47,152 nucleotides of DNA, taken from positions 1 through 47,152 of the forward strand of contig JAICUU010000003.1 in NCBI GenBank assembly GCA_025935675.1. Direction: 5' to 3'. Made by a program: the position numbers and the translations under genes. The notes beneath the pieces were generated by a model. It saw only the letters and a program-made list of their open reading frames with translations, did not search any database and was not told the DNA's origin. Below, piece by piece: positions 1 through 22,094 of this stretch; position 1 is the first letter of the stretch; each line of letters begins with the position of its first letter. Source of the DNA: Burkholderiales bacterium (lineage in GTDB: Bacteria > Pseudomonadota > Gammaproteobacteria > Burkholderiales > Casimicrobiaceae).

Positions 1-1236
1 GCGACGATCGCCGTGTCGCGGCCGTCGGCGGTGGTGAGCGACTTGCGCATGCCGGGCATCGACGGCCTAGCGCTCTTCGAGGCGATCCATCGCCAGCATC
101 CGGCGATGCCCGTGATCATCCTGACCGCGCACGGCACGATTCCCGATGCGGTGGCGGCGACGCAGCGCGGCGTGTTCGGCTTCCTGACCAAGCCGTTCGA
201 CAGCCAGGAGCTGCTGCAGAAAGTCGCCGCGGCGGTGTCGCTGTCGGGGGACGACCCGAGCGCCGAGTACGCGGCGAGCGGCGAATGGCGCGAGGGCATC
301 ATCACGCGCAGCCCGAGGATGGAGGACGTGCTGCGCCAGGCGCGCCTCGTCGCCGATTCGGATGCGAGCGTGCTGATCTACGGCGAGTCCGGCACCGGCA
401 AGGAGCTTCTCGCGCGCGCGATCCATCGCGCCAGCCGGCGCAGCGACAAGCCGCTCGTCGGCGTCAACTGCGGCGCGCTGCCGGGCGAGCTCCTCGAGTC
501 GGAGCTATTCGGCCACGCGCGCGGCGCGTTCACCGGCGCGATCGCCGCGCACAAGGGACTCTTCCAGGCGGCGGACGGCGGCACGCTCTTTCTCGACGAG
601 ATCGGCGACATGCCGCTGCCGCTGCAGGTCAAGCTCCTGCGCGTGCTGCAGGAGGGCGAGGTGCGGCCGGTCGGCGCGACGCAGTCGCTGCCGGTCGACG
701 TGCGCGTCATCTCGGCGACGCACCGCGACCTCGACGCGCAGAAGGCGGCGGGGCTGTTCCGCGAGGATCTCTATTACCGTCTCAACGTCGTGTCGCTGCG
801 GCTGCCGACGCTCGCCGAGCGTCGCGAGGACATTCCGCTCCTGTGCGCGCATTTCCTGCGCAAGCTCGCCGAGCGCTACCGCAAGGCGGTGCCGACGCTC
901 GCGCCCGAGGCGATGGCGCAGCTCGTCGCCGCGCCGTGGCCGGGCAACGTGCGCCAGTTGCTGAATCTCCTCGAGCAGGCGGTCGCGCTGACGACGACCA
1001 GCGTGATCCCGCTGACCACCGTGCAGAACGCGCTCAAGGAGGACGCCTCGGCGCTGGTGCCGTTCGAGGAGGCGCGCAAGAGCTTCGAGCGCGATTACCT
1101 GGTGCGGCTCCTCAAGATCACCGGCGGCAACGTCACGCAGGCCGCGCAGCTCGCCAAGCGCAACCGCACCGAGTTCTACAAGCTGCTGCAGCGCCATCGC
1201 CTCGAGCCGTCGATGTTCAAGGACGCGAAGGCCTGA
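1..1236 (+). CDS. glrR: GlrR/QseF-type sigma-54-dependent response regulator, 5' end missing
   Basis: The reading frame is open from the first base; the visible part starts inside the receiver domain (phospho-acceptor context VVSDLRMPG), so the true start lies upstream. After the receiver come an AAA+ domain with Walker A GESGTGKE (about 382-405), the sigma-54 contact loop GAFTGA, the Walker B region LFLDEIGD, and a Fis-type helix-turn-helix at the C-terminus with AKRNRTEFYKLLQRH. That last motif is typical of the GlrR (YfhA/QseF) branch. Such proteins, phosphorylated by a GlrK-type kinase, bind upstream sites and remodel sigma-54 RNA polymerase. The partner kinase would be upstream, outside the window. 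A consensus sigma-54 promoter with TGTC-N10-GACA sites lies at 6069-6264. Family is firm; the exact ortholog name is a motif-based judgement. Confidence 0.9.
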   Translation, partial: ATIAVSRPSAVVSDLRMPGIDGLALFEAIHRQHPAMPVIILTAHGTIPDAVAATQRGVFGFLTKPFDSQELLQKVAAAVSLSGDDPSAEYAASGEWREGIITRSPRMEDVLRQARLVADSDASVLIYGESGTGKELLARAIHRASRRSDKPLVGVNCGALPGELLESELFGHARGAFTGAIAAHKGLFQAADGGTLFLDEIGDMPLPLQVKLLRVLQEGEVRPVGATQSLPVDVRVISATHRDLDAQKAAGLFREDLYYRLNVVSLRLPTLAERREDIPLLCAHFLRKLAERYRKAVPTLAPEAMAQLVAAPWPGNVRQLLNLLEQAVALTTTSVIPLTTVQNALKEDASALVPFEEARKSFERDYLVRLLKITGGNVTQAAQLAKRNRTEFYKLLQRHRLEPSMFKDAKA

Positions 1237-1587: not shown

Positions 1588-2814
1588 TTGCCAACGTCAT
1601 CGAATGCCTCGCGGCGGCGCGGTCCGCTCCTCGCGGGGCTCGTCGCCGTCGCCATCGTCGCGCTGATCGCCTGGCGCACGGTCGAGCACCGCGCCGCCGC
1701 CCAAGCGACCGTGCGTACGGCGCCCGCCGCGGTGCCGGTGACCACGGTGCGCGCCGCGCGCGAGGACGTGCCCGTCTACCTCACCGGCATCGGCGCGGCG
1801 CAGCCCGCGCAGACCGTGACGGTCAAGGCGCGCGTCGACGGCCAGCTCGAGGCCGTCGCGTTCGCCGAGGGCAAGGACGTGAAGAAGGGCGACCTTCTCG
1901 CGAAGATCGACCCGCGCCCGTTCGAGGCGGCGCTCGACCAGGCGAGCGCGCAGCGCGCGCGCGACGAGGCGCAGCTCGTGTCGGCGAAGAAGGACCTCGA
2001 GCGCTACACGACGCTCGTCGCGCAGGACTCGATACCGCGCCAGACGCTCGACACGCAGCACGCGCTGGTCGGCCAGCTCACCGCGGCGATCCAGGCCGAC
2101 GATGCGGCGATCGCCAACGCGCGCGTGCAGCTCTCGTACACGACGATCCGCGCGCCGCTGTCGGGCCGCACCGGCATGCGGATGGTCGACGTCGGCAACA
2201 TCGTGCATGCGTCCGACGCCAACGGCCTCGTCGTCATCAACGAGGTCGACCCGATCGCCGTCGTGTTCACGCTGCCCGAGGACAGCTTCCGCCGCGTCAA
2301 CGACGCGATCCGCGCCGCCGGTGCGAAGCCGCTCGAGGTGCGCGCGTTCGCCCGCGACGACGGGACGCTGCTCGACAGCGGGCACCTCGTGCTCGTCAAC
2401 AACCAGATCGACGTCGCCACCGGAACGTTCCAGCTGAAGGCTACGTTCGCCAATCCGAAGCACGCTCTGTGGCCCGGGCAGGACGTCAACGTCAAGCTGG
2501 TGCTCGGCGTGCGCAGGGACGCGACGACCATTCCCGGCGCTGCCGTGCAGCGCGGCGCCGATGGGCTTCTCGCCTATGTCGTGGGGCCGGACGACGCCGT
2601 CGAGATCCGGACGATCAAGGTCGCCGCCGTGCAGGACGGCAAGGCGATCATCGACGAAGGTGTGAGCGCCGGCGCCCGCGTCATCGTCGACGGCCAGTAC
2701 AAGGTACGTGCGGGCGCCAGGGTCGCCGAGGCCGCGGCGCCGGGCGCGACGCCATCGCCCGCGTCGCCGCCTTCACGCGACGCGTCGGCGACGCCAGCGG
2801 CACACGCGCAGTGA
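1588..2814 (+). CDS. RND efflux periplasmic adaptor (membrane fusion protein, MdtA-like)
   Basis: The 408-residue protein begins with a basic stretch and one hydrophobic segment (about residues 13-28) that anchors or exports it. A barrel-sandwich lipoyl part follows (VDGQLEAVAFAEGKDVKKGD), then a helical hairpin, the second lipoyl half (YTTIRAPLSGRTGMRMVDVGNIV) and a beta-barrel domain. The C-terminal tail is Ala/Pro/Ser-rich. The TTG start is chosen because AGGGGATAGAG lies just before it and no ATG precedes the hydrophobic segment. It would link the RND pump of the next gene to an outer-membrane channel, but no channel gene is present here. Its stop codon overlaps a 12-codon mini-ORF that leads to the pump gene. 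Confidence 0.9.
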   Translation: MPTSSNASRRRGPLLAGLVAVAIVALIAWRTVEHRAAAQATVRTAPAAVPVTTVRAAREDVPVYLTGIGAAQPAQTVTVKARVDGQLEAVAFAEGKDVKKGDLLAKIDPRPFEAALDQASAQRARDEAQLVSAKKDLERYTTLVAQDSIPRQTLDTQHALVGQLTAAIQADDAAIANARVQLSYTTIRAPLSGRTGMRMVDVGNIVHASDANGLVVINEVDPIAVVFTLPEDSFRRVNDAIRAAGAKPLEVRAFARDDGTLLDSGHLVLVNNQIDVATGTFQLKATFANPKHALWPGQDVNVKLVLGVRRDATTIPGAAVQRGADGLLAYVVGPDDAVEIRTIKVAAVQDGKAIIDEGVSAGARVIVDGQYKVRAGARVAEAAAPGATPSPASPPSRDASATPAAHAQ

Positions 2815-2849
2815 CCCACGGCGGCACCGCGGCGGCGCGCACTCGATGA
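2811..2849 (+). other. 12-codon mini-ORF bridging adaptor and pump genes
   Basis: GTG at 2811 overlaps the adaptor stop (GTGA), and the mini-ORF (MTHGGTAAARTR if GTG is read as Met) stops at 2847-2849 inside the ATGA start of the pump. It fills the 31-base gap exactly. It may carry terminating ribosomes to the next start; expression is not shown. Confidence 0.35.
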
Positions 2850-5800
2850 GCATCTCGGCAGGGTTCATCCACCGCCCCATCGGCACGTCGCTGCTCGCCG
2901 CGGCGATGTTGCTGATCGGCATCGCGGCGTGGCCGCTCCTGCCGGTCGCGCCGCTGCCGCAGGTCGATTTCCCGACGATCCAGGTCTCGGCCAAGCTGCC
3001 GGGCGCGAGCCCCGACACCATGGCGGCCACGGTGGCGCAGCCGCTCGAACGCCAGTTCTCGCTGATCGCGGGACTCACCGAGATGACGTCGGAGAACATC
3101 CTCGGCTCGACGCAGATCACGCTGCAGTTCGACCTCGACCGCAACATCAACGACGCGGCCACCGACGTGCTCGCCGCAATCAACGCCGCGAGCGGCAGCC
3201 TGCCCGACGCCCTGCCCAACCCGCCGACGTTCCGCAAGAGCAATCCCGCCGACCGGCCGATCCTGATCATGGCAGTGACGTCGGACACGCTGCCGCTCAC
3301 CGTCGCCTCCGATTACGCCGACAACGTGCTGGCGCAGCAGATCTCGCAGATCAAGGGCGTCGGCGAGGTCGACATCTTCGGCCAGCAGAAGCCGGCGGTC
3401 CGCATCCAGGTCGACCCGGCGCGTCTCGCCGCACTCGGGCTGTCGCTCGAGGACATCCGTCCCCCGCTCGTCAACGCGACGATCAACGCGCCGAAGGGCA
3501 CGTTCGACGGCCCGAAGCGCAGCGTCACCGTCTACGACAACGACCAGATCGTCGCCGCAGGCGTGTGGGACGACGTGATCGTCGCCTGGCACAAGGGCGC
3601 GCCGGTGCGCGTGCGCGACATCGGCCACGCCGTGGACGGCGCGGAGAACACCAAGGCCGCGGCGTGGGCCTACGCGGGCAAGGGCGCGCCGCCGACGGCT
3701 GGGCTCGGGCACAGCAAGGCGGTGCTGGTGGCGGTGCGCAAGGAACCCGGCGCCAACGTCATCGACACCGTCGACCGCATCGAGGCAGCGATGCCGCGGC
3801 TGCGGGCGTCGATCCCGCAGGCGATCGACGTGAGCTTCCTGTCGGACCGCACGCAGACGATCCGCGCGTCTGTGCACGACGTCGAGTTCACGCTGATCCT
3901 GACCGGCATCCTCGTGGTGCTGGTGATCTTCGTGTTCCTGCGCGACGTGCCGGCGACGGTCATCCCCGGCGTCACCGTGCCGCTCGCGATCCTCGGCACC
4001 GCGGGCGCCATGTACCTGCTCGGCTACAGCCTCGACAACCTGTCGCTGATGGGGCTGACCATCGCCACCGGGTTCGTCGTCGACGACGCGATCGTCATGC
4101 TGGAGAACATCTATCGCCACGTCGAGAACGGCGAGACGCCGTTCCAGGCGGCGCTGAAGGGGGCCGGCGAGATCGGCGGCACGATCGTGACGATCGCCGT
4201 GTCGCTCGTCGCCGTGTTCATCCCGCTGCTGCTGATGGGCGGCATCATCGGCCGCATCTTCCGCGAGTTCGCGGTCACGGTGACGATCGCCATCGCCATC
4301 TCGGTCGCGATCTCGCTGACGCTGACGCCGATGCTGTGCTCACGCTTCCTGCACCCGCACGAGGAAGGCGGGCGCAAGCACGGGCGGCTCTTCATGATGT
4401 TCGAGCGCGGCTTCGCGCGGCTCGCCGACCGCTACCGCGGCGCGCTCGCCGCGGTGCTGCGCCACCAGTTCGCGATGCTCCTGCTGTTCATCGCCACGCT
4501 GGTGACGACGGTGGCGCTGTACATCGTGATCCCCAAGGGGTTCTTCCCGCAGCAGGACACCGGCTTCATCGCCGGCATCGCCGAAGGCGCGCAGGACATC
4601 TCGTTCGCGGCGATGAGCGAGCGCTCGAGCGCGATCGCCGACATCGTGCGCGAGGATCCGGACGTGGTGAGCGTCGGCTTCACCAACGGCAGCAGGACCG
4701 TCAACAACACCAACTTCTTCATCACGCTGAAGCCCAAGGAGGACGGGCGCAAGGCCAGCGCCGACCAGGTGATCGCGCGGCTGCGCAAGGCGCTCGCGGG
4801 CGTCGAGGGCGTCACGCTCTACCTGCAGGCGTCGCAGGACATCAACGTTGGCGGCCGCCTGGCGCGCACGCAATATCAATACACGCTGACCGACGCCAGC
4901 ATCGACGAGCTCGGCTCGTGGGCGCCGCGCATCCTCGACCGCCTGCGCGAGTTGCCGCAGCTCACCGACGTCGCGTCGGACCAGCAGCTCTCCGCCGCCG
5001 CCGTCAACCTGACGATCGACCGCGACCGCGCGTCGTCGTACGGCATCACGCCGGCGATGATCGACGCGACGATCTACGACGCCATCGGCCAGCGGCAGAT
5101 CGTCCAGTACTCGACGCAGCTCAACGCCTATCACGTGATCCTCGAGGTGCTGCCCCGGTTGCAGGAGGACCCTAGCCTGTTCGACAAGATCTACGTGACG
5201 TCGCCGACGCTCGGCAAGCCGGTGCCGCTGTCGACGTTCGTGCGCGTCGACGACACGAAGACCAACTACCTGTCGATCAGCCACCAGAGCCAGTTCCCGG
5301 CGATCACGATGTCGTTCAACCTGGCGCCGGGCGTGGCGCTCGGCGACGCCGTCGACGCGATCGACGCGACGATGCGCGGCATGGGCACGCCGGCAGCGTT
5401 GCGGGGCAACTTCCAGGGCACGGCGCAGGCGTTCCAGACCTCGCTCAAGACGCAGCCGTACCTGATCCTCGCCGCATTGCTCGCCGTCTACATCGTGCTG
5501 GGCTTCCTGTACGAGAGCTACATCCACCCGCTGACCATCCTGTCGACGCTGCCGTCCGCCGGCGTGGGGGCGCTGCTCATCCTGATCGTCGCGGGCTACG
5601 ACCTGTCGGTGATCGCGCTGATCGGCATCATCCTGCTGATCGGCATCGTCAAGAAGAACGGCATCATGATGGTCGACTTCGCGCTCGCGGCCGAGCGCCA
5701 GCGCGGGCTCGCACCCGAGGCCGCGATCACCGAGGCGTGCATGCTGCGCTTCCGGCCGATCCTGATGACGACGATGTGCGCGATCCTCGCCGGGATGCCG

Positions 5801-6058
5801 CTGATGCTGAGCCACGGCACGGGCTCGGAATTGCGCCGCCCGCTCGGCTACGCGATGGTCGGCGGCCTCATGTTCTCGCAGGTCCTGACGCTCTTCACCA
5901 CGCCGGTCGTGTACCTCTACCTCGACCGCGCGCACGCCCTTTACATGCGCTGGCGACACTCGTCGGGACACGCGCCGGCGGAGACAATGGAAGCCATTTC
6001 CACGAGTGGCGCGCCGGGTTCGTCGGCGCCTGCGCACGGCGCCTCGTCCGCCGACTGA
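2846..6058 (+). CDS. RND multidrug efflux pump, inner-membrane permease (MdtB/MdtC-like, HAE1 family)
   Basis: The 1070-residue length is normal for the family. The N-terminus FIHRPIGTSLLAAAMLLIG is the usual first membrane helix, followed by a large periplasmic loop. The central helices contain the proton-relay region LTIATGFVVDDAIVMLENI with paired Asp. A second periplasmic loop follows near GFFPQQDTGFIAGI, and the last helices include GIVKKNGIMMVDFAL. The ATG at 2846 is chosen because it starts right at the cytoplasmic tail of helix 1. It acts with the preceding adaptor in proton-driven export. MdtB and MdtC work as a pair in E. coli, whereas only one pump gene is present here. Confidence 0.93.
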   Translation: MSISAGFIHRPIGTSLLAAAMLLIGIAAWPLLPVAPLPQVDFPTIQVSAKLPGASPDTMAATVAQPLERQFSLIAGLTEMTSENILGSTQITLQFDLDRNINDAATDVLAAINAASGSLPDALPNPPTFRKSNPADRPILIMAVTSDTLPLTVASDYADNVLAQQISQIKGVGEVDIFGQQKPAVRIQVDPARLAALGLSLEDIRPPLVNATINAPKGTFDGPKRSVTVYDNDQIVAAGVWDDVIVAWHKGAPVRVRDIGHAVDGAENTKAAAWAYAGKGAPPTAGLGHSKAVLVAVRKEPGANVIDTVDRIEAAMPRLRASIPQAIDVSFLSDRTQTIRASVHDVEFTLILTGILVVLVIFVFLRDVPATVIPGVTVPLAILGTAGAMYLLGYSLDNLSLMGLTIATGFVVDDAIVMLENIYRHVENGETPFQAALKGAGEIGGTIVTIAVSLVAVFIPLLLMGGIIGRIFREFAVTVTIAIAISVAISLTLTPMLCSRFLHPHEEGGRKHGRLFMMFERGFARLADRYRGALAAVLRHQFAMLLLFIATLVTTVALYIVIPKGFFPQQDTGFIAGIAEGAQDISFAAMSERSSAIADIVREDPDVVSVGFTNGSRTVNNTNFFITLKPKEDGRKASADQVIARLRKALAGVEGVTLYLQASQDINVGGRLARTQYQYTLTDASIDELGSWAPRILDRLRELPQLTDVASDQQLSAAAVNLTIDRDRASSYGITPAMIDATIYDAIGQRQIVQYSTQLNAYHVILEVLPRLQEDPSLFDKIYVTSPTLGKPVPLSTFVRVDDTKTNYLSISHQSQFPAITMSFNLAPGVALGDAVDAIDATMRGMGTPAALRGNFQGTAQAFQTSLKTQPYLILAALLAVYIVLGFLYESYIHPLTILSTLPSAGVGALLILIVAGYDLSVIALIGIILLIGIVKKNGIMMVDFALAAERQRGLAPEAAITEACMLRFRPILMTTMCAILAGMPLMLSHGTGSELRRPLGYAMVGGLMFSQVLTLFTTPVVYLYLDRAHALYMRWRHSSGHAPAETMEAISTSGAPGSSAPAHGASSAD

Positions 6059-6068
6059 TCGCGCGCGC

Positions 6069-6086
6069 TGTCGTCGCGCGGCGACA
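6069..6086. promoter_or_regulatory. Putative GlrR-type upstream activating site (TGTC-N10-GACA)
   Basis: The sequence TGTC-N10-GACA is present exactly and sits inside a longer palindrome with arms CGCTGTCG and CGACAGCG (6067-6089). This is the site format known for GlrR in enterobacteria. It lies about 165-180 bp upstream of the sigma-54 promoter, a normal distance for an enhancer site. Confidence 0.6.
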
Positions 6087-6133
6087 GCGTTTCGCGCGGA
6101 AATTCAATCGGTTGACGCAAGCCGTTCCGCCGG

Positions 6134-6151
6134 TGTCGGGACGCGGCTACA
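6134..6151. promoter_or_regulatory. Second, imperfect GlrR-type site
   Basis: TGTC-N10-TACA differs from the TGTC-N10-GACA format at one position. It lies about 100 bp upstream of the sigma-54 promoter. On its own it would be weak evidence; it gains weight from the perfect site at 6069-6086. Confidence 0.4.
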
Positions 6152-6248
6152 CACGCGTCGGTGTTGCGCCGGCAGCCAACGCCATGCTCGCGCGCGCAAA
6201 GTGCGCCCATCCCCCGGAATCGCGCCATTCATCTGCCTTGAGGGGGTG

Positions 6249-6264
6249 TGGCACGCCGCTTGCT
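6249..6264 (+). promoter_or_regulatory. Sigma-54 (-24/-12) promoter
   Basis: TGGCACG-CCGC-TTGCT matches the sigma-54 consensus TGGCACR-N4-TTGCW at every fixed position. The GG at 6250-6251 and GC at 6262-6263 have the required 10-base spacing. Transcription would start near 6275, about 21 bases before the ATG at 6296. The 5' gene of this window encodes a sigma-54 activator. Confidence 0.8.
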
Positions 6265-6295
6265 CATCACGACACGGAAAGATGCGGGAACGACG

Positions 6296-6451
6296 ATGCG
6301 CACCATGAAAGCCCCTGAATTCACCGGATACTGGTTCGACGACGACGTGGCGCCGATGCGCGTGCTGAGCGACGAGGACTCGACGCTCGCCGAGCAGGAA
6401 GCGCTTGACGATCTCGCCGAACGCGTGAGCGCTGCGCGCAGCGTCATCTGA
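6296..6451 (+). CDS. Small acidic 51-residue protein, unknown function, in a sigma-54 unit
   Basis: The predicted peptide starts MRTMKAPEFTGYWFDDD and is rich in Asp/Glu, with an amphipathic C-terminal half. It has no membrane segment or signal peptide. I do not recognise the family. The ATG at 6296 is preceded by GCGGGAACG, a fair ribosome-binding site, and lies about 21 bases after the start point predicted from the sigma-54 promoter. A second ATG at 6305 is possible. An in-frame GTG at 6248 is rejected because it lies within the promoter. The transcript would end at the terminator at 6586-6614, leaving about 135 untranslated bases, so the RNA itself may also be a product. Confidence 0.6.
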   Translation: MRTMKAPEFTGYWFDDDVAPMRVLSDEDSTLAEQEALDDLAERVSAARSVI

Positions 6452-6585
6452 ACCCTCGCGGCCGCGCGAAGGACGCGGCCCCGTATCGCCAGCCCACGGC
6501 GCATGCCGGCGGCGATCGACCGATCGACCCGCCCGAGCCCGCGGGAGAACTTGAAGCGGCTCATCCTCCGACGGAATCCCCCTTG
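6452..6585 (+). other. Structured 3' untranslated region or possible small RNA
   Basis: This stretch between the small gene and its terminator has a 7-bp GC stem at 6460-6480 (GGCCGCG / CGCGGCC) and a self-complementary CGATCG repeat near 6515-6530. No credible coding region is visible. With the T8 terminator that follows, it resembles the 3' part of a regulatory RNA. This is inference only. Confidence 0.3.
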
Positions 6586-6614
6586 CCCGCTACTCCTCCC
6601 AGCGGGTTTTTTTT
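6586..6614 (+). terminator. Intrinsic terminator of the sigma-54 unit
   Basis: CCCGCT (6586-6591) and AGCGGG (6601-6606) form a perfect 6-bp stem, followed at once by eight T residues (6607-6614). It is one of the two clear intrinsic terminators in the window. Confidence 0.85.
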
Positions 6615-6617
6615 GCC

Positions 6618-6626
6618 TGTTAGAGT
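6618..6626 (+). promoter_or_regulatory. Possible extended -10 element of the metallophosphoesterase gene
   Basis: TG-N-TAGAGT lies only six bases before the ATG at 6633 and immediately after the T-run of the upstream terminator. If used, it would give a leaderless transcript. No -35 element is visible because that position falls on the terminator hairpin. Confidence 0.3.
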
Positions 6627-6632
6627 CGCAAG

Positions 6633-7394
6633 ATGCGACTCCACATCGTCTCCGATCTGCATTTGAGCCGCGCGGGATTCGATCTCCCCGAGACCGGCGC
6701 CGACCTCCTCATCCTCGCCGGCGACCTCGCCCGGCCGGCGGAGGCGGTGGCGTGGGCGTCGCGGGCTGGAGGCCCGGCGCTCTACGTCGCCGGCAACCAC
6801 GAGTTCTACGGCGGCAGCCTTCCCGGCACGCGCGCGCGGCTCGCGGAGCTTTGCGCGGGCACGCCGATCCGGTTCCTCGACGACGGCGAGGTCGTCGTGG
6901 ACGGCGTGCGCTTCCTCGGCACGACGCTGTGGTCCGACTTCCGCCTCGATGCGACCGAAGCGGGCCGCGCGACGGCGCGCGACGCGGCTCGCCAAACGAT
7001 CCGCGACTTCACGCACATCCGCCTCGGCGACGCGTCCGACCAGACCTTCACGCCGGAGGATTCGACGCGACTCTTCGATGCTCACGTCACCTGGCTCGAT
7101 GCGCGCCTCGCGGCGCCGCACGATGGTCCGACGGTCGTGATCACCCATCACGCGCCGTCGCCGCGGAGCATCCACCCGCGCTTCGCGGGCTCGCCGCTCA
7201 ACGGCTGCTTCGTCTCGGATGCCGCGCGGCTTCTCGATGGGCGCGCGGCGCTGTGGATCCACGGGCACACGCATGACAGCTTCGACTATGTCGCCGGCGG
7301 CACGCGGGTGGTGTGCAACCCGCGCGGCTACATGATGAACGGTGTGGGCGAGAACCCGCGCTTCGACCCGGGACTGGTGATCGACGTCGGCTGA
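6633..7394 (+). CDS. Calcineurin-like metallophosphoesterase
   Basis: The 253-residue protein has the metal-binding motifs of the family in order: SDLHLS (D-x-H), ILAGDL (GD), GNHE, ITHHAPS (THH) and HGHTHDS (GHTH). No signal peptide or extra domain is visible, so it is probably a single-domain cytoplasmic phosphoesterase; the substrate cannot be told from sequence. The ATG at 6633 has little room for a leader: TGtTAGAGT at 6618-6626 looks like an extended -10 element that would place the transcript start on or next to the ATG. The gene is convergent with thyA, with a composite repeat between them. Confidence 0.88.
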   Translation: MRLHIVSDLHLSRAGFDLPETGADLLILAGDLARPAEAVAWASRAGGPALYVAGNHEFYGGSLPGTRARLAELCAGTPIRFLDDGEVVVDGVRFLGTTLWSDFRLDATEAGRATARDAARQTIRDFTHIRLGDASDQTFTPEDSTRLFDAHVTWLDARLAAPHDGPTVVITHHAPSPRSIHPRFAGSPLNGCFVSDAARLLDGRAALWIHGHTHDSFDYVAGGTRVVCNPRGYMMNGVGENPRFDPGLVIDVG

Positions 7395-17275: not shown

Positions 17276-19852
17276 TCAACGCGCAGCGGCGCCGAGGAAG
17301 GCCGTCATCGCCTCGAACGGCCGGGGCCGGCTGACGAGGTATCCCTGGATGATGTCGCAACCCATGGACGCGAGGAGGTCGCGCTGCGCGGGCGTTTCCA
17401 CGCCCTCGGCGACGACGCGCAGCTCGAGCTGGTGGGCGAGCGAAATGATCGTCGACACGATGGAGATGTTGTCGGCGACCTCGGTCATTGCGCTCACGAA
17501 CGATCGATCGATCTTCATCGCGCTGAGCGGCAACCGGCCGATATACGCGAGCGACGAGTAGCCCGTCCCGAAATCATCGATCTCGACGCCCATGCCGGCA
17601 TCGCGCAACGCCTGCAGCTTGGGCACGTATTGCGCAATGTCGTCCATGATCACCGTCTCGGTGATCTCGAGGTCGATGGCCGCGGGGTCGCCGCCGGTGC
17701 CGCGCACGGCGTCGAGCGCCGACGCCACGAAATCCTTCTGCCGGAGTTGCTTGGCGGACACGTTGACCGACACGCGGGGGACGCCGTGCCCCGCGCTCGC
17801 CCATCGCTGCTGGTCGGTCACTGCCTGGCGCAGGACCCACAGCCCCACGTCGACGATCATGCCGGTCTCCTCGAGCATCGGCACGAATTGCGCGGGCGAC
17901 ACCATGCCCTCGTCGGGACTCTGCCAGCGGATCAGCGCCTCGAGGCTATCGATGCGCCCGGTAGCGAGTTCGATCTTGGGCTGGTAGTGCAGGATGAACT
18001 CCTCGGCAGCGATGGCCTTGTGCAACCGGCTCTCCAGCAGCAGGATGCCGGCCACGCTCGCCTTCATTTGCGACGCGTAGAACATGTAGCGCTCGCCGGA
18101 CGACTTGGCGTTCTTGAGCGCCGCCTCCGCGTTCTTGAGCAGCGATTCGGCGTCGTCGCCGTCGCCCGGATGGATCGCGACGCCGCACTTGAACGCCACG
18201 CGGAGCTCCTGCGTGCCGATGTGGTAGGGATCCCCCATCAGCGCGGCGGTGAATTCGGCGAGGAGACGCGCGGCGTCGGCGTCGTCGCGCACGTCGGGCA
18301 CCGCGATCGCGAAGACATCGGCGCCGAGCCGCGCGATGCTCGCGCTCCCCTCCACGGCATCGCGCAGTCGCGCGGCGATGAGCTTGAGGAGCGTGTCGCC
18401 GGCCTGGCGCCCGAGCGTGTCATTGACGAGCGCGAAGCGCTCGACATCGACCACGGCGACGGCGACGCGCTGCGGCGAATCGGCCGCGTGAGCATTGACG
18501 AGCTGGCTTACGCGATCGGCGAACAGGCTGCGGTTGGGAAGGTCGGTGAGCGGATCGTAATAGGCGAAGTAATCGAGCCGCTCGTTCTTGTCGATGTACT
18601 CGAGCGCGTAGGAGATGTCGCCGGCGAGCTCGGAAAGGAGCTTCATCTCGTCGTCGTCGAACACGTGCGAGCCTGCGGCATACAGCACGAGCGCGCCGCT
18701 GACGTGTCCCTCGACGGGAAGCGGAAGCGCGGCCCCTGCGGTCACCCCTGGCAGCGGGGGCGCGCCTGCCGCTGAAATGTCGTCGACGACGAGCGGAACG
18801 CCCTCGCGAATGGCCCTCGCCGCGATGCCCTGCGGGTCGAATGGCGCCGCGCTTGCGAGGAAGCGCTCGGTCGCGGCCCCATCGAGCCCCTTGCACGCCG
18901 CGACGGTGGGCGTGGCGTCGCCAGCGCCCAAGGCGACCCATGCGAAGCGGAAGCCGCCATGCTCCACGGCGATCCGGCACGCCTCGCGCAGGAGCTCGCC
19001 GCGGTCGCGGACGCGCACGATCGTCGAATTGATTCCGCTCAGCACCCTGTGGATGCGGCTCAGGCGGGCGAGCTTTTGCTCGGCCTCGAGGCGCGCGGTG
19101 AAGTCGACCGCCGCGCCGCCGATCATCGCCGGCCGGCCCTCGCTGTCCGGGATCGGGAACTTGTGCATCAGGTAGCAACGGTCGCCTTCGGGGCCCGCAT
19201 AGGTCTCGAAGGCCTGCAGCACGTGGTTGTGCTGGCGGACCCAGGTGTCGTTCGCGTCGTAGGTCGCGGCCGCCTGCGGCCAGATCTCGCCGTTGGTGCG
19301 CCCGATGATCTCGTCGCTGCCGCGGCTCGCCATGCGCTCGAAGGCCCGGTTGACGAACTGCAGCCGCCCATCGAGCGTCTTGATGAACGCCGGGCCGGGC
19401 AGGTGCTGCATGAACAGCGCGAATCGCTCCTGGACGCGACGCAGCTCGCGCTCGGCATTTTCCTTGATCGCTTTCTCGCGCGCATCGCGCAGGGCCCGCT
19501 CGATCGCCGTCGCGAGCCGGCCCATGTTGTTCTTGAGGATGTAGTCGACCGCGCCGCTGCGCAGCGATTCGATCGCGATCTCCTCGCCGATGGTGCCGGA
19601 CAGGAACACGAAGGGGATGTGGGGCGCGTGCTCGCGCGCGAGCACCAGCGCGTCGGAGCCGGCGAAGTTCGGCATCGAGTAGTCGGACAGGATGATGTCC
19701 GGCTCGAACGACCTCAGCTTCTCGAGGAACGCGGGAGCGGTGTCGACGCGCTCGATGGTGTTGCCGACCCCCGCCTTCTGCAGCGCGCGCGCCACGAGCT
19801 CGGCGTCGAGCGGCCTGTCTTCGACAAGCAGGATTCGGATGGACGCGGACAT
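17276..19852 (-). CDS. REC-PAS-GAF-GGDEF(degenerate)-EAL protein
   Basis: The 858 residues hold a receiver (about 5-120; acceptor in IILSDYSMP, D57), PAS (about 145-265), GAF (about 280-430), a GGDEF-type domain (about 440-590) and EAL (about 605-850). The signature of the cyclase domain reads RLGADVFAI where RLGGDEFAI is expected, so cyclase activity is unlikely. The EAL side is intact (SLEALIRW, LEITETVIM, DDFGTGYSS, KIDRSF, VAEGVET), so it should degrade cyclic di-GMP. The gene is convergent with the one-domain regulator and may take its phosphate signal from the same kinase. Confidence 0.92.
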   Translation of the reverse strand: MSASIRILLVEDRPLDAELVARALQKAGVGNTIERVDTAPAFLEKLRSFEPDIILSDYSMPNFAGSDALVLAREHAPHIPFVFLSGTIGEEIAIESLRSGAVDYILKNNMGRLATAIERALRDAREKAIKENAERELRRVQERFALFMQHLPGPAFIKTLDGRLQFVNRAFERMASRGSDEIIGRTNGEIWPQAAATYDANDTWVRQHNHVLQAFETYAGPEGDRCYLMHKFPIPDSEGRPAMIGGAAVDFTARLEAEQKLARLSRIHRVLSGINSTIVRVRDRGELLREACRIAVEHGGFRFAWVALGAGDATPTVAACKGLDGAATERFLASAAPFDPQGIAARAIREGVPLVVDDISAAGAPPLPGVTAGAALPLPVEGHVSGALVLYAAGSHVFDDDEMKLLSELAGDISYALEYIDKNERLDYFAYYDPLTDLPNRSLFADRVSQLVNAHAADSPQRVAVAVVDVERFALVNDTLGRQAGDTLLKLIAARLRDAVEGSASIARLGADVFAIAVPDVRDDADAARLLAEFTAALMGDPYHIGTQELRVAFKCGVAIHPGDGDDAESLLKNAEAALKNAKSSGERYMFYASQMKASVAGILLLESRLHKAIAAEEFILHYQPKIELATGRIDSLEALIRWQSPDEGMVSPAQFVPMLEETGMIVDVGLWVLRQAVTDQQRWASAGHGVPRVSVNVSAKQLRQKDFVASALDAVRGTGGDPAAIDLEITETVIMDDIAQYVPKLQALRDAGMGVEIDDFGTGYSSLAYIGRLPLSAMKIDRSFVSAMTEVADNISIVSTIISLAHQLELRVVAEGVETPAQRDLLASMGCDIIQGYLVSRPRPFEAMTAFLGAAAR

Positions 19853-20165
19853 GACGTGGTGTACCCAGCTCCTCGCAAGCGACGCAGGGCGTCCGTGCCG
19901 GGTCAGGAAGCGACGAATTGCGCCCGCCCAGGTGACCGCGAACGAGCGCGCGCTCGAACGGCCGGCGGGGGCGGGCTATCGACGCGGGATGACTCGGCCG
20001 AACGACGATTGCCGGTGGCGCGACATGACCTTCAACGAGGTTGCCGGCGCCGCCCCCGACTCTGTCAGCAATTCATGTGCCATTCTGGTGCGAGACGCTC
20101 GCGCGAGCGGGTTTGTATGCGCGTTGCAACTGCTGTACAAAGGCGGCACTTCGAGCCGACCGCCG
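19853..20165. other. Divergent intergenic region
   Basis: This 313-base stretch separates the EAL gene (- strand) from the MFS-acyltransferase gene (+ strand). The + frame is open through it, but its translation has no family resemblance. The only signal I can name is the promoter at 20113-20141. Confidence 0.4.
20113..20141 (+). promoter_or_regulatory. Sigma-70-type promoter of the MFS-acyltransferase gene
   Basis: TTGTAT (20113-20118) and TACAAA (20136-20141) are separated by exactly 17 bases; each matches its consensus at four of six positions. TG precedes the -10 element. Transcription would begin near 20148, 18 bases before the chosen ATG, which supports that start. Confidence 0.45.
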
Positions 20166-22094
20166 ATGCCGACCGCCACCGCGAACGCCGAGCCAGCCTC
20201 CGACCCGCACGCGCGCAACCAGTTCGCGCTCTTGCGCGAGCGCCGCTTCGCGCCATTCTTCTGGACGCAGTTCCTCGGCGCCGGCAACGACAACGTCTAC
20301 AAGAACGCGCTCGTCATCTTCGTCGCCTACCACGCGGCGAGCATGACGACGCTCGACGCCAACACCCTCGTCAACGTCGCGGCGGCCGTCTTCATCCTGC
20401 CGTATGTGCTGCTGTCGGCGACCGCGGGGCAGCTCGCCGACAAGGTCGAGAAGTCGCGGATGATCCGTGTGATCAAGATGCTCGAGGTCGCGATCATGCT
20501 GGTCGGAGTCGCCGGCTTCGCGACGCGGAGCCTCGCGCTGCTGTTCACGGCACTGACGCTGATGGGCGTGCACTCGACGTTCTTCGGGCCGATCAAGTAC
20601 GCGATCCTGCCGCAGGTGCTGAAGCCCGAGGAGCTGACCGGCGGCAACGGCATGGTCGAGATGGGCACGTTCGTCGCGATCCTGCTCGGCACGATCGCCG
20701 GCGGCGTGCTGGTCGCGATCGACCCGAACGGGCCGTTGATCGCATCGGGCGCCGCGGTGGCCATCGCGCTGGCGGGTTACGCGGTGAGCCGCGCGATCCC
20801 GACGGCGCCTGCGGTGGCGCCCGATCTCGAGCTCAACTGGAATCCCGTCAGCGAGACCTGGCGCAACCTGAAGTTCGCGCAGGCGAACCGCGTCGTCTGG
20901 CTGTCGATGCTCGGCATCTCGTGGTTTTGGTTCTACGGCGCGACCTTCCTCACGCAGTTTCCCAACTTCACCCGCGGCGTGCTGGGTGGCGACGAGCACG
21001 TGGCGACGTTCCTGCTCGCCATGTTCTCGGTGGGCATCGGCGCCGGATCGCTGCTGTGCGAGCGGCTGTCGCGGCGCAAGGTCGAGATCGGCCTCGTGCC
21101 GCTCGGCTCGATCGGCATGACGGTGTTCGCGATCGACCTGTGGCTCGCGTCGCGCAACCTGCACGCCACGTCGCTCGCCGGCATCGACGTGCTGCTCGCC
21201 GACCGGGCGCACTGGCGCGTGATCGCCGACCTCGTGCTGATCGGGGTGTTCGGCGGCTTCTACATCGTGCCGCTCTATGCGCTCATCCAGCAGCGCTCGT
21301 CGCCGGCGCACCGCTCGCGGATCATCGCCGCCAACAACATCCTCAACGCGTTGTTCCTGGTCGCGTCGGCGGGCATCGCGCTCGGCCTCCTCAAGGCGGG
21401 CCTCGACATCCCCAGCCTTTTCCTCGTCACCGGCCTCATGAACGCCGCGGTGGCGCTCTTCATCTACCTGCTGGTGCCCGAGTTCCTGATGCGCTTCCTC
21501 GCGTGGCTGCTCGTGTCGACGCTCTACCGGGTGAAGACCGAAGGGCTCGAGCGCATCCCCGAGCAAGGCGCGGCGATCGTCGTCTGCAACCACGTGAGCT
21601 ACGTGGACGCCGTGGTGATCGCGGCCTGCCTCGCGCGCCCGGTGCGCTTCGTGATGGACCATCGCATCTTCGCGTTGCCGGTGCTGTCGTTCCTGTTCCG
21701 CACGATGCGCACCATCCCGATCGCGCCGGCGAAGGAGGACGCGGCGATGAAGGCGCGCGCCTACGAGGCAGTCGCCGCGGCGCTCGCCGAGGGCGAGGTC
21801 GTCGGCATCTTCCCGGAAGGCCGCCTCACCACCGACGGCGCGCTGCTGCCGTTCCGGCCGGGCGTGCAGGAGATCGTCGCGCGCACGCCCGTGCCGGTGG
21901 TGCCGATGGCGCTGCGCGGCCTGTGGGGCAGCTTCTTCTCGCGCGCCGGCGAAGGCGGCAAGGCGATGCGGCGGCTGCGCGGCGTCTTCTCGGCGATCGA
22001 GCTGCGCGTCGGCACGCCGATCGCGCCGCAGGACGCGACGCCCGAGCGCCTGCGCGCCGCGGTGCTCGCGCTGCGCGGCGAGGCGCCGACGTGA
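20166..22094 (+). CDS. MFS transporter fused to a PlsC-type acyltransferase (LplT-Aas-like)
   Basis: The first ~430 of 642 residues form an MFS domain (FFWTQFLGAGNDNVYKNAL, HSTFFGPIKYAILPQ), similar to the lysophospholipid flippase LplT. The last ~200 form a glycerophospholipid acyltransferase with NHVSYVD (H-x4-D), FPEGRLTTDG and VPMALRG. In E. coli, LplT imports lysophospholipids and Aas re-acylates them, with an added acyl-ACP synthetase domain. Here flippase and acyltransferase are one chain and no AMP-binding synthetase domain is present. A role in membrane lipid repair is likely. The ATG at 20166 is supported by the promoter spacing; earlier ATGs in the frame are less likely. Confidence 0.88.
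   Translation: MPTATANAEPASDPHARNQFALLRERRFAPFFWTQFLGAGNDNVYKNALVIFVAYHAASMTTLDANTLVNVAAAVFILPYVLLSATAGQLADKVEKSRMIRVIKMLEVAIMLVGVAGFATRSLALLFTALTLMGVHSTFFGPIKYAILPQVLKPEELTGGNGMVEMGTFVAILLGTIAGGVLVAIDPNGPLIASGAAVAIALAGYAVSRAIPTAPAVAPDLELNWNPVSETWRNLKFAQANRVVWLSMLGISWFWFYGATFLTQFPNFTRGVLGGDEHVATFLLAMFSVGIGAGSLLCERLSRRKVEIGLVPLGSIGMTVFAIDLWLASRNLHATSLAGIDVLLADRAHWRVIADLVLIGVFGGFYIVPLYALIQQRSSPAHRSRIIAANNILNALFLVASAGIALGLLKAGLDIPSLFLVTGLMNAAVALFIYLLVPEFLMRFLAWLLVSTLYRVKTEGLERIPEQGAAIVVCNHVSYVDAVVIAACLARPVRFVMDHRIFALPVLSFLFRTMRTIPIAPAKEDAAMKARAYEAVAAALAEGEVVGIFPEGRLTTDGALLPFRPGVQEIVARTPVPVVPMALRGLWGSFFSRAGEGGKAMRRLRGVFSAIELRVGTPIAPQDATPERLRAAVLALRGEAPT

Follow-up and report, generated by a model that had tools for sequence, protein, structure and literature searches.

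A candidate dual-function transcript with GlrR-type sites, a sigma-54 promoter and a conserved C/U-rich RNA 3' end in Casimicrobiaceae

In the Casimicrobiaceae, bacteria of soil and water, an envelope-stress regulator appears to turn on a short transcript that carries the gene of a tiny protein, and the strongly conserved RNA tail of this transcript is probably regulatory. The unit was studied in a stretch of 47,152 nucleotides (contig JAICUU010000003.1; hereafter the window) and in related genomes, in which its parts are conserved jointly and in the same order, the protein is under selection, and the RNA element is kept in some genomes without the protein. The best reading of these comparisons is a candidate dual-function transcript, RNA plus small protein, with an RNA function as the better-supported conserved core and the protein as an additional product.

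The sigma-54 -24/-12 element (TGGCACGCCGCTTGCT) is located at 6249-6264 on the (+) strand of the window. Upstream of it lie two GlrR-type activating sites on the same strand: an exact TGTC-N10-GACA site at 6069-6086, placed within a palindrome with 8-bp arms (CGCTGTCG/CGACAGCG), and a second site with one mismatch at 6134-6151, 65 bp after the first. The original prediction had named the promoter, both sites, the palindrome, a short reading frame and a hairpin followed by T8, and all of them were recovered at these positions. Counts of such motifs are at chance level: the window holds 19 TGTC sites with at most one mismatch against 13.7 expected (sd 4.2), and full -24/-12 matches number four genome-wide, as compared with three for the reversed pattern. 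We thus rejected site or promoter counts alone as evidence, and conservation became the question.

We tabulated 45 units of the family (20 from the window's genus, g1; 8 from g2, 6 from g21, 5 from g3, 3 from g137, 2 from g4 and 1 from g138), taking for each, within about 400 nt, the best pair of sites with a spacing of 64-67 bp. A pair with at most one mismatch in total was found in 44/45 units, with a spacing of 65 bp in 36 of those tabulated; the lone unit without it, G341, is cut at that place by the contig end. The equivalent test on 400-nt stretches of flanking DNA, with identical spacing and at most one mismatch, gave 0/864. The -24/-12 element matches at 9-11 of 11 positions in 45/45 units and begins 111-139 bp downstream of the start of the second site (n=45), so that both features of a GlrR regulon member, TGTC-N10-GACA sites (44/45) and a sigma-54 promoter (45/45), are present across the family, as the original prediction had required of close relatives. 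It had also asked whether peptide and 3' element are conserved together with these parts and with glrR; departures from this are g21, in which the protein was not found, g2, whose units sit away from glrR, and G017, which has no element. The joint conservation of site pair, promoter and short gene is the evidence for the unit.

A glrR-like gene for a sigma-54 response regulator (Pfam Response_reg and Sigma54_activat) occupies 1-1236 (+) and is truncated at its 5' end, where the contig begins. Among 110 NCBIfam models, the one that scores best for its product is GlrR (NF011695), at 585 bits against a cut-off of 763; across the order, scores of GlrR-like proteins are bimodal, one group scoring above about 450 bits and the remaining proteins at about 330 or lower. 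glrR was matched in 59/64 family genomes, and it lies directly upstream of the unit, in the same direction, in 23/23 wide loci outside g2. Moreover, paired sites occur within 450 nt downstream of GlrR orthologs in 19/60 regions order-wide (a count without a control; the regions are those fetched from the upper score group, a few further matches being left out), and hence the position just behind glrR is a recurring slot for a sigma-54 target in the order. Control of the unit by the regulator at 1-1236 had been proposed from the window; the best-scoring NCBIfam model, the adjacency of glrR and the order-wide site pairs indicate that a GlrR-type regulator very probably controls it. We regard it as improbable that the sites serve some other enhancer-binding protein that recognises a similar motif: the score of the regulator under the GlrR equivalog cut-off would be compatible with this, as would the paired TGTC sites that also occur at sigma-54 promoters remote from glrR and the g2 units, with no glrR in the flanks of 6/6 fetched loci (one only 3.1 kb), but the adjacency in 23/23 loci and the site pairs after GlrR orthologs speak against it. 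The joint losses do so as well. Outside g2 and g21, only G013 (g1), G323 (g137), G023 (g3) and G339 gave no match to the short protein; the first three also lack a glrR match, and in G339 glrR stops at the contig end. Many of the genomes compared are incomplete bins.

The exact site pair was found in 42/300 order genomes and a reversed control pattern in one; this exact pattern misses the window's genome and eight other family genomes of that sample because one site bears a mismatch in the units read. Genes following site pairs in 30 loci viewed include opgG/mdoG-like, mdoH and cyanophycin-synthetase-like genes and genes for envelope or small proteins (names by our reading, except MdoH, which is from NCBIfam). 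In other Burkholderiales (L028-L031, L039-L043, L045-L047), GlrR-type pairs and sigma-54-like elements precede mdoG/mdoH-like and cyanophycin-synthetase-like genes.

As to gene order, the window is an exception, in that RND pump genes (1588-6058) intervene between glrR and the unit; the best NCBIfam models for the adaptor and permease are MdtA/MuxA and MdtB/MuxB, both below their cut-offs, and no RND genes occupy this place in the 23 wide non-g2 loci. A convergent thyA follows the unit in 19/23 of these loci (not immediately in G002 and G015); a ThyA match is missing in G007, G009 and G024, and in G017 thyA and the unit are codirectional. A phosphoesterase gene (6633-7394) stands before thyA in the window. 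The g2 units sit away from glrR, by about 31 kb in G022, and have kept sites, promoter and protein despite this distance. Elsewhere in the window, a second full-consensus -24/-12 element (20067-20082, -) lies about 200 nt upstream of a gene (19852-17276) which we read as coding for a response regulator with GGDEF/EAL domains. The sole Rfam gathering match, Bcj11 (20863-20984, 68.6 bits), falls within an ORF (19692-22094) that reads like an MFS/acyltransferase fusion, and is hence probably conserved coding sequence.

The short protein gene is the reading frame 6296-6451 (+), originally described as 51 codons. The frame stands, and its start probably shifts: homology points to the second ATG, 6305, as the probable start of the conserved protein, which would give 48 aa; a purine-rich stretch is better placed for 6296 than for 6305. 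The protein was found in 14/41 genomes searched, all of the window's genus, and a profile built from these 14 members (A1) matched 38/64 family genomes from 6/7 genera, including 21/22 of the window's genus (the match in G021 being a fragment at a contig end). Among 300 order genomes, A1 gave four matches: the window, two others of the family, and a spurious one (G313, partial, E 0.007, inside a 191-aa frame). A second match in G002 was likewise judged spurious. The protein is under purifying selection: in the 43 close pairs, those that share at least 62% amino-acid identity, pN/pS is 0.09-0.59. The full set of 190 g1 pairs, most of which are distant, has a median of 0.67. Conserved motifs are an N-terminal [AS]P[ED][FL] and a C-terminal helix around EALEELAERVxAARSVV, and AlphaFold2 predicts for the window's protein only a C-terminal helix at residues 23-47 (mean pLDDT 72.5). 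The 14 members match no Pfam family (six weak matches, one member each, best E 0.023), the window's protein, the only member run, has no NCBIfam match, and titles and abstracts in an open library yielded no description of the unit.

Within the unit, conservation is highest at the 3' end. The element at 6572-6614 (+; AAUCCCCCUUG, stem GCCCGC/GCGGGU, loop with CUCCUCCC, U8; 59.2 bits) is a candidate for sRNA pairing regions combined with an intrinsic terminator, and is preceded by a 3' UTR spacer (6452-6571, +) whose sequence is not conserved. Of the terminator first noted at 6586-6614, the hairpin and T8 are confirmed, and its role as a mere end mark is not. In the 16 g1 units compared (120 pairs, with identity computed over the longer of the two sequences; G017, G341 and, by design, g2 and g21 left out; G005, G012, G016 and G344 unparsed), median identity is 0.82 in the element, 0.59 in the coding part, and 0.35-0.40 in the 5' UTR (0.35), the 3' UTR spacer (0.39) and the spacers between the sites. 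The 3'-most 40-48 nt of the units read GAATCCCCCTTGCCCGCTnnnTTCCTCCCGGCGGGCTTTTTTT, and the RNA 3' end follows the pattern GAAUCCCCCUUGCCCGCU-n-UUCCUCCC-GGCGGGCUUUUUUU, with an anti-Shine-Dalgarno-like loop; the motif resembles the anti-Shine-Dalgarno end of 16S rRNA. TCCTCC lies within the 3' UTR or element of 43/45 units, a tally that counts every unit, while the loop conservation in our element model R1 is partly by construction, since its 28 elements were preselected by a pattern requiring CTCC or TTCC. The terminator loop is CTCTCCC in G002, which carries TCCTCC elsewhere in its 3' UTR, and CCCTCC in G347; in G017 sites, promoter and protein are kept and the element was not found. In the stem, 97.8% of the cells are paired, with change on both sides at 2 of 7 pairs. 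The covariation score was reached by 1/500 shuffles. The covariation is modest: 33/500 shuffles had two pairs changed on both sides, and kinship inflates such scores. The window's transcript is no more stable than its shuffles (z 0.2), and in the predicted fold of the transcript or of the 3' UTR the loop is paired to a GGGAG stretch that lies upstream of it.

Is the small protein the sole functional product, and the 3' element nothing more than an efficient intrinsic terminator? Purifying selection on the protein and its matches in 6/7 genera speak for this, as do the terminator-like form of the element and G017, which retains the protein without the element. Nevertheless, we consider this explanation rather unlikely: conservation in the element covers the loop and the AAUCCCCCUU flank, beyond the arms and the U-run; the element is present in g21 without the protein; and the terminators of separate RF02278-like sRNA loci differ in arms and loop (few cases, a weak control). 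Because only one strand carries the T-run, we rejected the element as a bidirectional terminator in common with the convergent thyA. Another alternative, that the C/U-rich loop acts in cis on the ribosome-binding region of its own mRNA and limits translation of the small protein, would fit the complementarity of the loop to a Shine-Dalgarno-type sequence; we hold it to be a slim chance, given that g21 keeps the element without a matching protein gene to regulate and that the 5' UTRs are not conserved (identity 0.35); pairing in cis was looked at in the window's own fold. The original choice between RNA, small protein or both is thereby narrowed: purifying selection acts on the protein, but conservation is higher in the RNA 3' end, which also persists in g21 without the protein, and for these two reasons we favour the RNA function as the conserved core.

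The g21 genomes deserve a closer description. Six of eleven (G280, G346, G347, G349, G352, G354) keep glrR, followed by the sites, the sigma-54 element and an RNA end of the type (GAA/AAG)CCCCCTTTGGCCCACC(T/C)CCTCCTGGTGGGC, without a recognisable protein; only the RNA seems to be left. The protein profile, run against all frames of these six units, gave a best E of 1.6, and four diverged positives matched. The predicted transcript of G280 is about 98 nt, has no ORF of at least 8 aa starting before the element, and folds below its shuffles (z -3.8). No genuine element was found in the other five genomes: in G345, G348 and G350 GlrR is more diverged (61-65% identity) and no element was detected at E <= 0.02, G351 gave neither element nor glrR, and in G353, with glrR at a contig end, the element match lacks the motif and is spurious. 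In g2, of which 8 of 17 genomes were read, a near-invariant hairpin just past the stop carries UUUCCUCCCCC (6 genomes), and in the g2 units of G147 and G250 the stem of this hairpin is changed on both sides.

Beyond the family, R1 matched 71/300 order genomes at E <= 0.1, and on reading 28 loci most matches were dismissed as ordinary GC-rich terminators; TCCTCC stands in the hairpin loop only in G154, G114, G071 and the g21 genome G280. G154 and G114 have their elements downstream of glrR. In G114 and G071 the element stands at the end of an operon for proteins that we read as CsbD-like and glycine-zipper; this operon has a sigma-54 element and TGTC sites, a single exact one in G114 and, in G071, a pair bearing one mismatch. 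The elements of G154, G114 and G071 are likely homologous to that of the family. A scan of named genomes with the element pattern returned only 20 stretches, all of which we infer to belong to Casimicrobiaceae; among them, two (L250, L251) come from bins titled Bordetella parapertussis and Aromatoleum sp., titles that look wrong. An Rfam match of anti-hemB over the element of G024 (22.3 bits, gathering 49.5, E 0.47) was taken as chance.

Regarding known systems, the best reading is that the unit is wired like GlmY and carries a motif like that of S17/bdhR1, and is a member of neither. GlrR/QseF is known mainly for driving the sRNA GlmY in enteric bacteria (PMC6075780), and in E. coli GlmY is encoded beside the genes of QseF itself; the likeness consists in a GlrR-type regulator, TGTN12ACA sites, a sigma-54 promoter and an sRNA gene beside two-component genes. 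In contrast, the Casimicrobiaceae unit follows glrR, whereas GlmY precedes its operon, and it bears a protein gene and an RNA with unpaired C/U-rich motifs. The GlmY covariance model (RF00128), which matches its E. coli control, gave 0/10 family genomes. S17, from the same order, is described in a preprint (PMC11722255) as repressing an mRNA via C/U-rich single strands acting on ribosome-binding regions; S17L contains a small ORF and is the RNA from which processing yields S17S. With S17/bdhR1 (RF02278, Betaproteobacteria) the unit shares C/U-rich single strands with UCCUCC, an intrinsic terminator and a small ORF; S17 differs in its sigma-A promoter, and the Casimicrobiaceae unit places one motif in the terminator loop itself. 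RF02278 gave no match at E <= 1 in ten unit-bearing loci, nor in window 6000-6700. It did match weakly the element of G071, a genome of family f48 (22 bits, E 0.05), and gave weak matches in 6/14 control genomes. Elsewhere in several Casimicrobiaceae genomes it matched RF02278-like loci, all below the gathering score; the two loci above that score are in f48. Of four such Casimicrobiaceae sRNA loci below gathering (L254, L255, L257, L258), three have UUCCUCCAUUCUCCUCCU in common. A third comparison is CcaF1-CcsR1-4 of Rhodobacter, in which a small-protein gene is cotranscribed with sRNAs from its 3' UTR (PMC8307010). Our unit resembles it in combining a small-protein gene and a candidate 3' UTR RNA on one predicted transcript; CcaF1 is a DUF1127 protein, a domain that Pfam detects in none of the 14 members, and its promoter class differs from the sigma-54 type of the unit. 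The unit shows a conserved 3' end, an intrinsic terminator and a predicted unpaired region, the features of 3' UTR-derived sRNAs, with the exceptions of G017, G002, G347 and the full fold of the window.

Taken as a whole, we think it fairly probable that a GlrR/sigma-54 transcript gives rise to a trans-acting sRNA and, in most genera, to a small protein. Phosphorylated GlrR would bind the two sites 65 bp apart and activate sigma-54 RNA polymerase at 6249-6264. The resulting transcript (about 6275-6614, 340 nt) would code for the 48-51-aa protein and end in the conserved C/U-rich RNA; it would act in trans, either whole or as a shorter fragment released from its 3' end. Since the motif is C/U-rich, we infer that single-stranded CCCCCUUG and the UUCCUCCC loop may pair with the Shine-Dalgarno regions of target mRNAs, leading to their repression. 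GlrR binding, the transcription start, processing, trans action and targets are thus putative steps deduced from sequence comparison. In this way the GlrR system would have an RNA arm, the analogue of GlmY, and the protein would be a second product, absent in g21.

The slot after glrR in Burkholderiales appears to hold different ORFs: CsbD-like and glycine-zipper in family f48, a 50-aa protein in Casimicrobiaceae and none recognisable in g21. Only tentatively, we speculate that GlrR controls an sRNA, and an unrelated one, far from the enterics, and that this slot keeps the C/U-rich 3' RNA while the ORFs upstream of it are swapped, the proteins being changing passengers and the RNA the old product. 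The variants make the two products separately testable, as g21 has kept the RNA with no protein found and g2 carries the motif in another hairpin. A sigma-54/GlrR-type unit outside the enterics whose candidate sRNA is unrelated to GlmY would be a sign that RNA regulators were recruited repeatedly by this envelope-sensing system.
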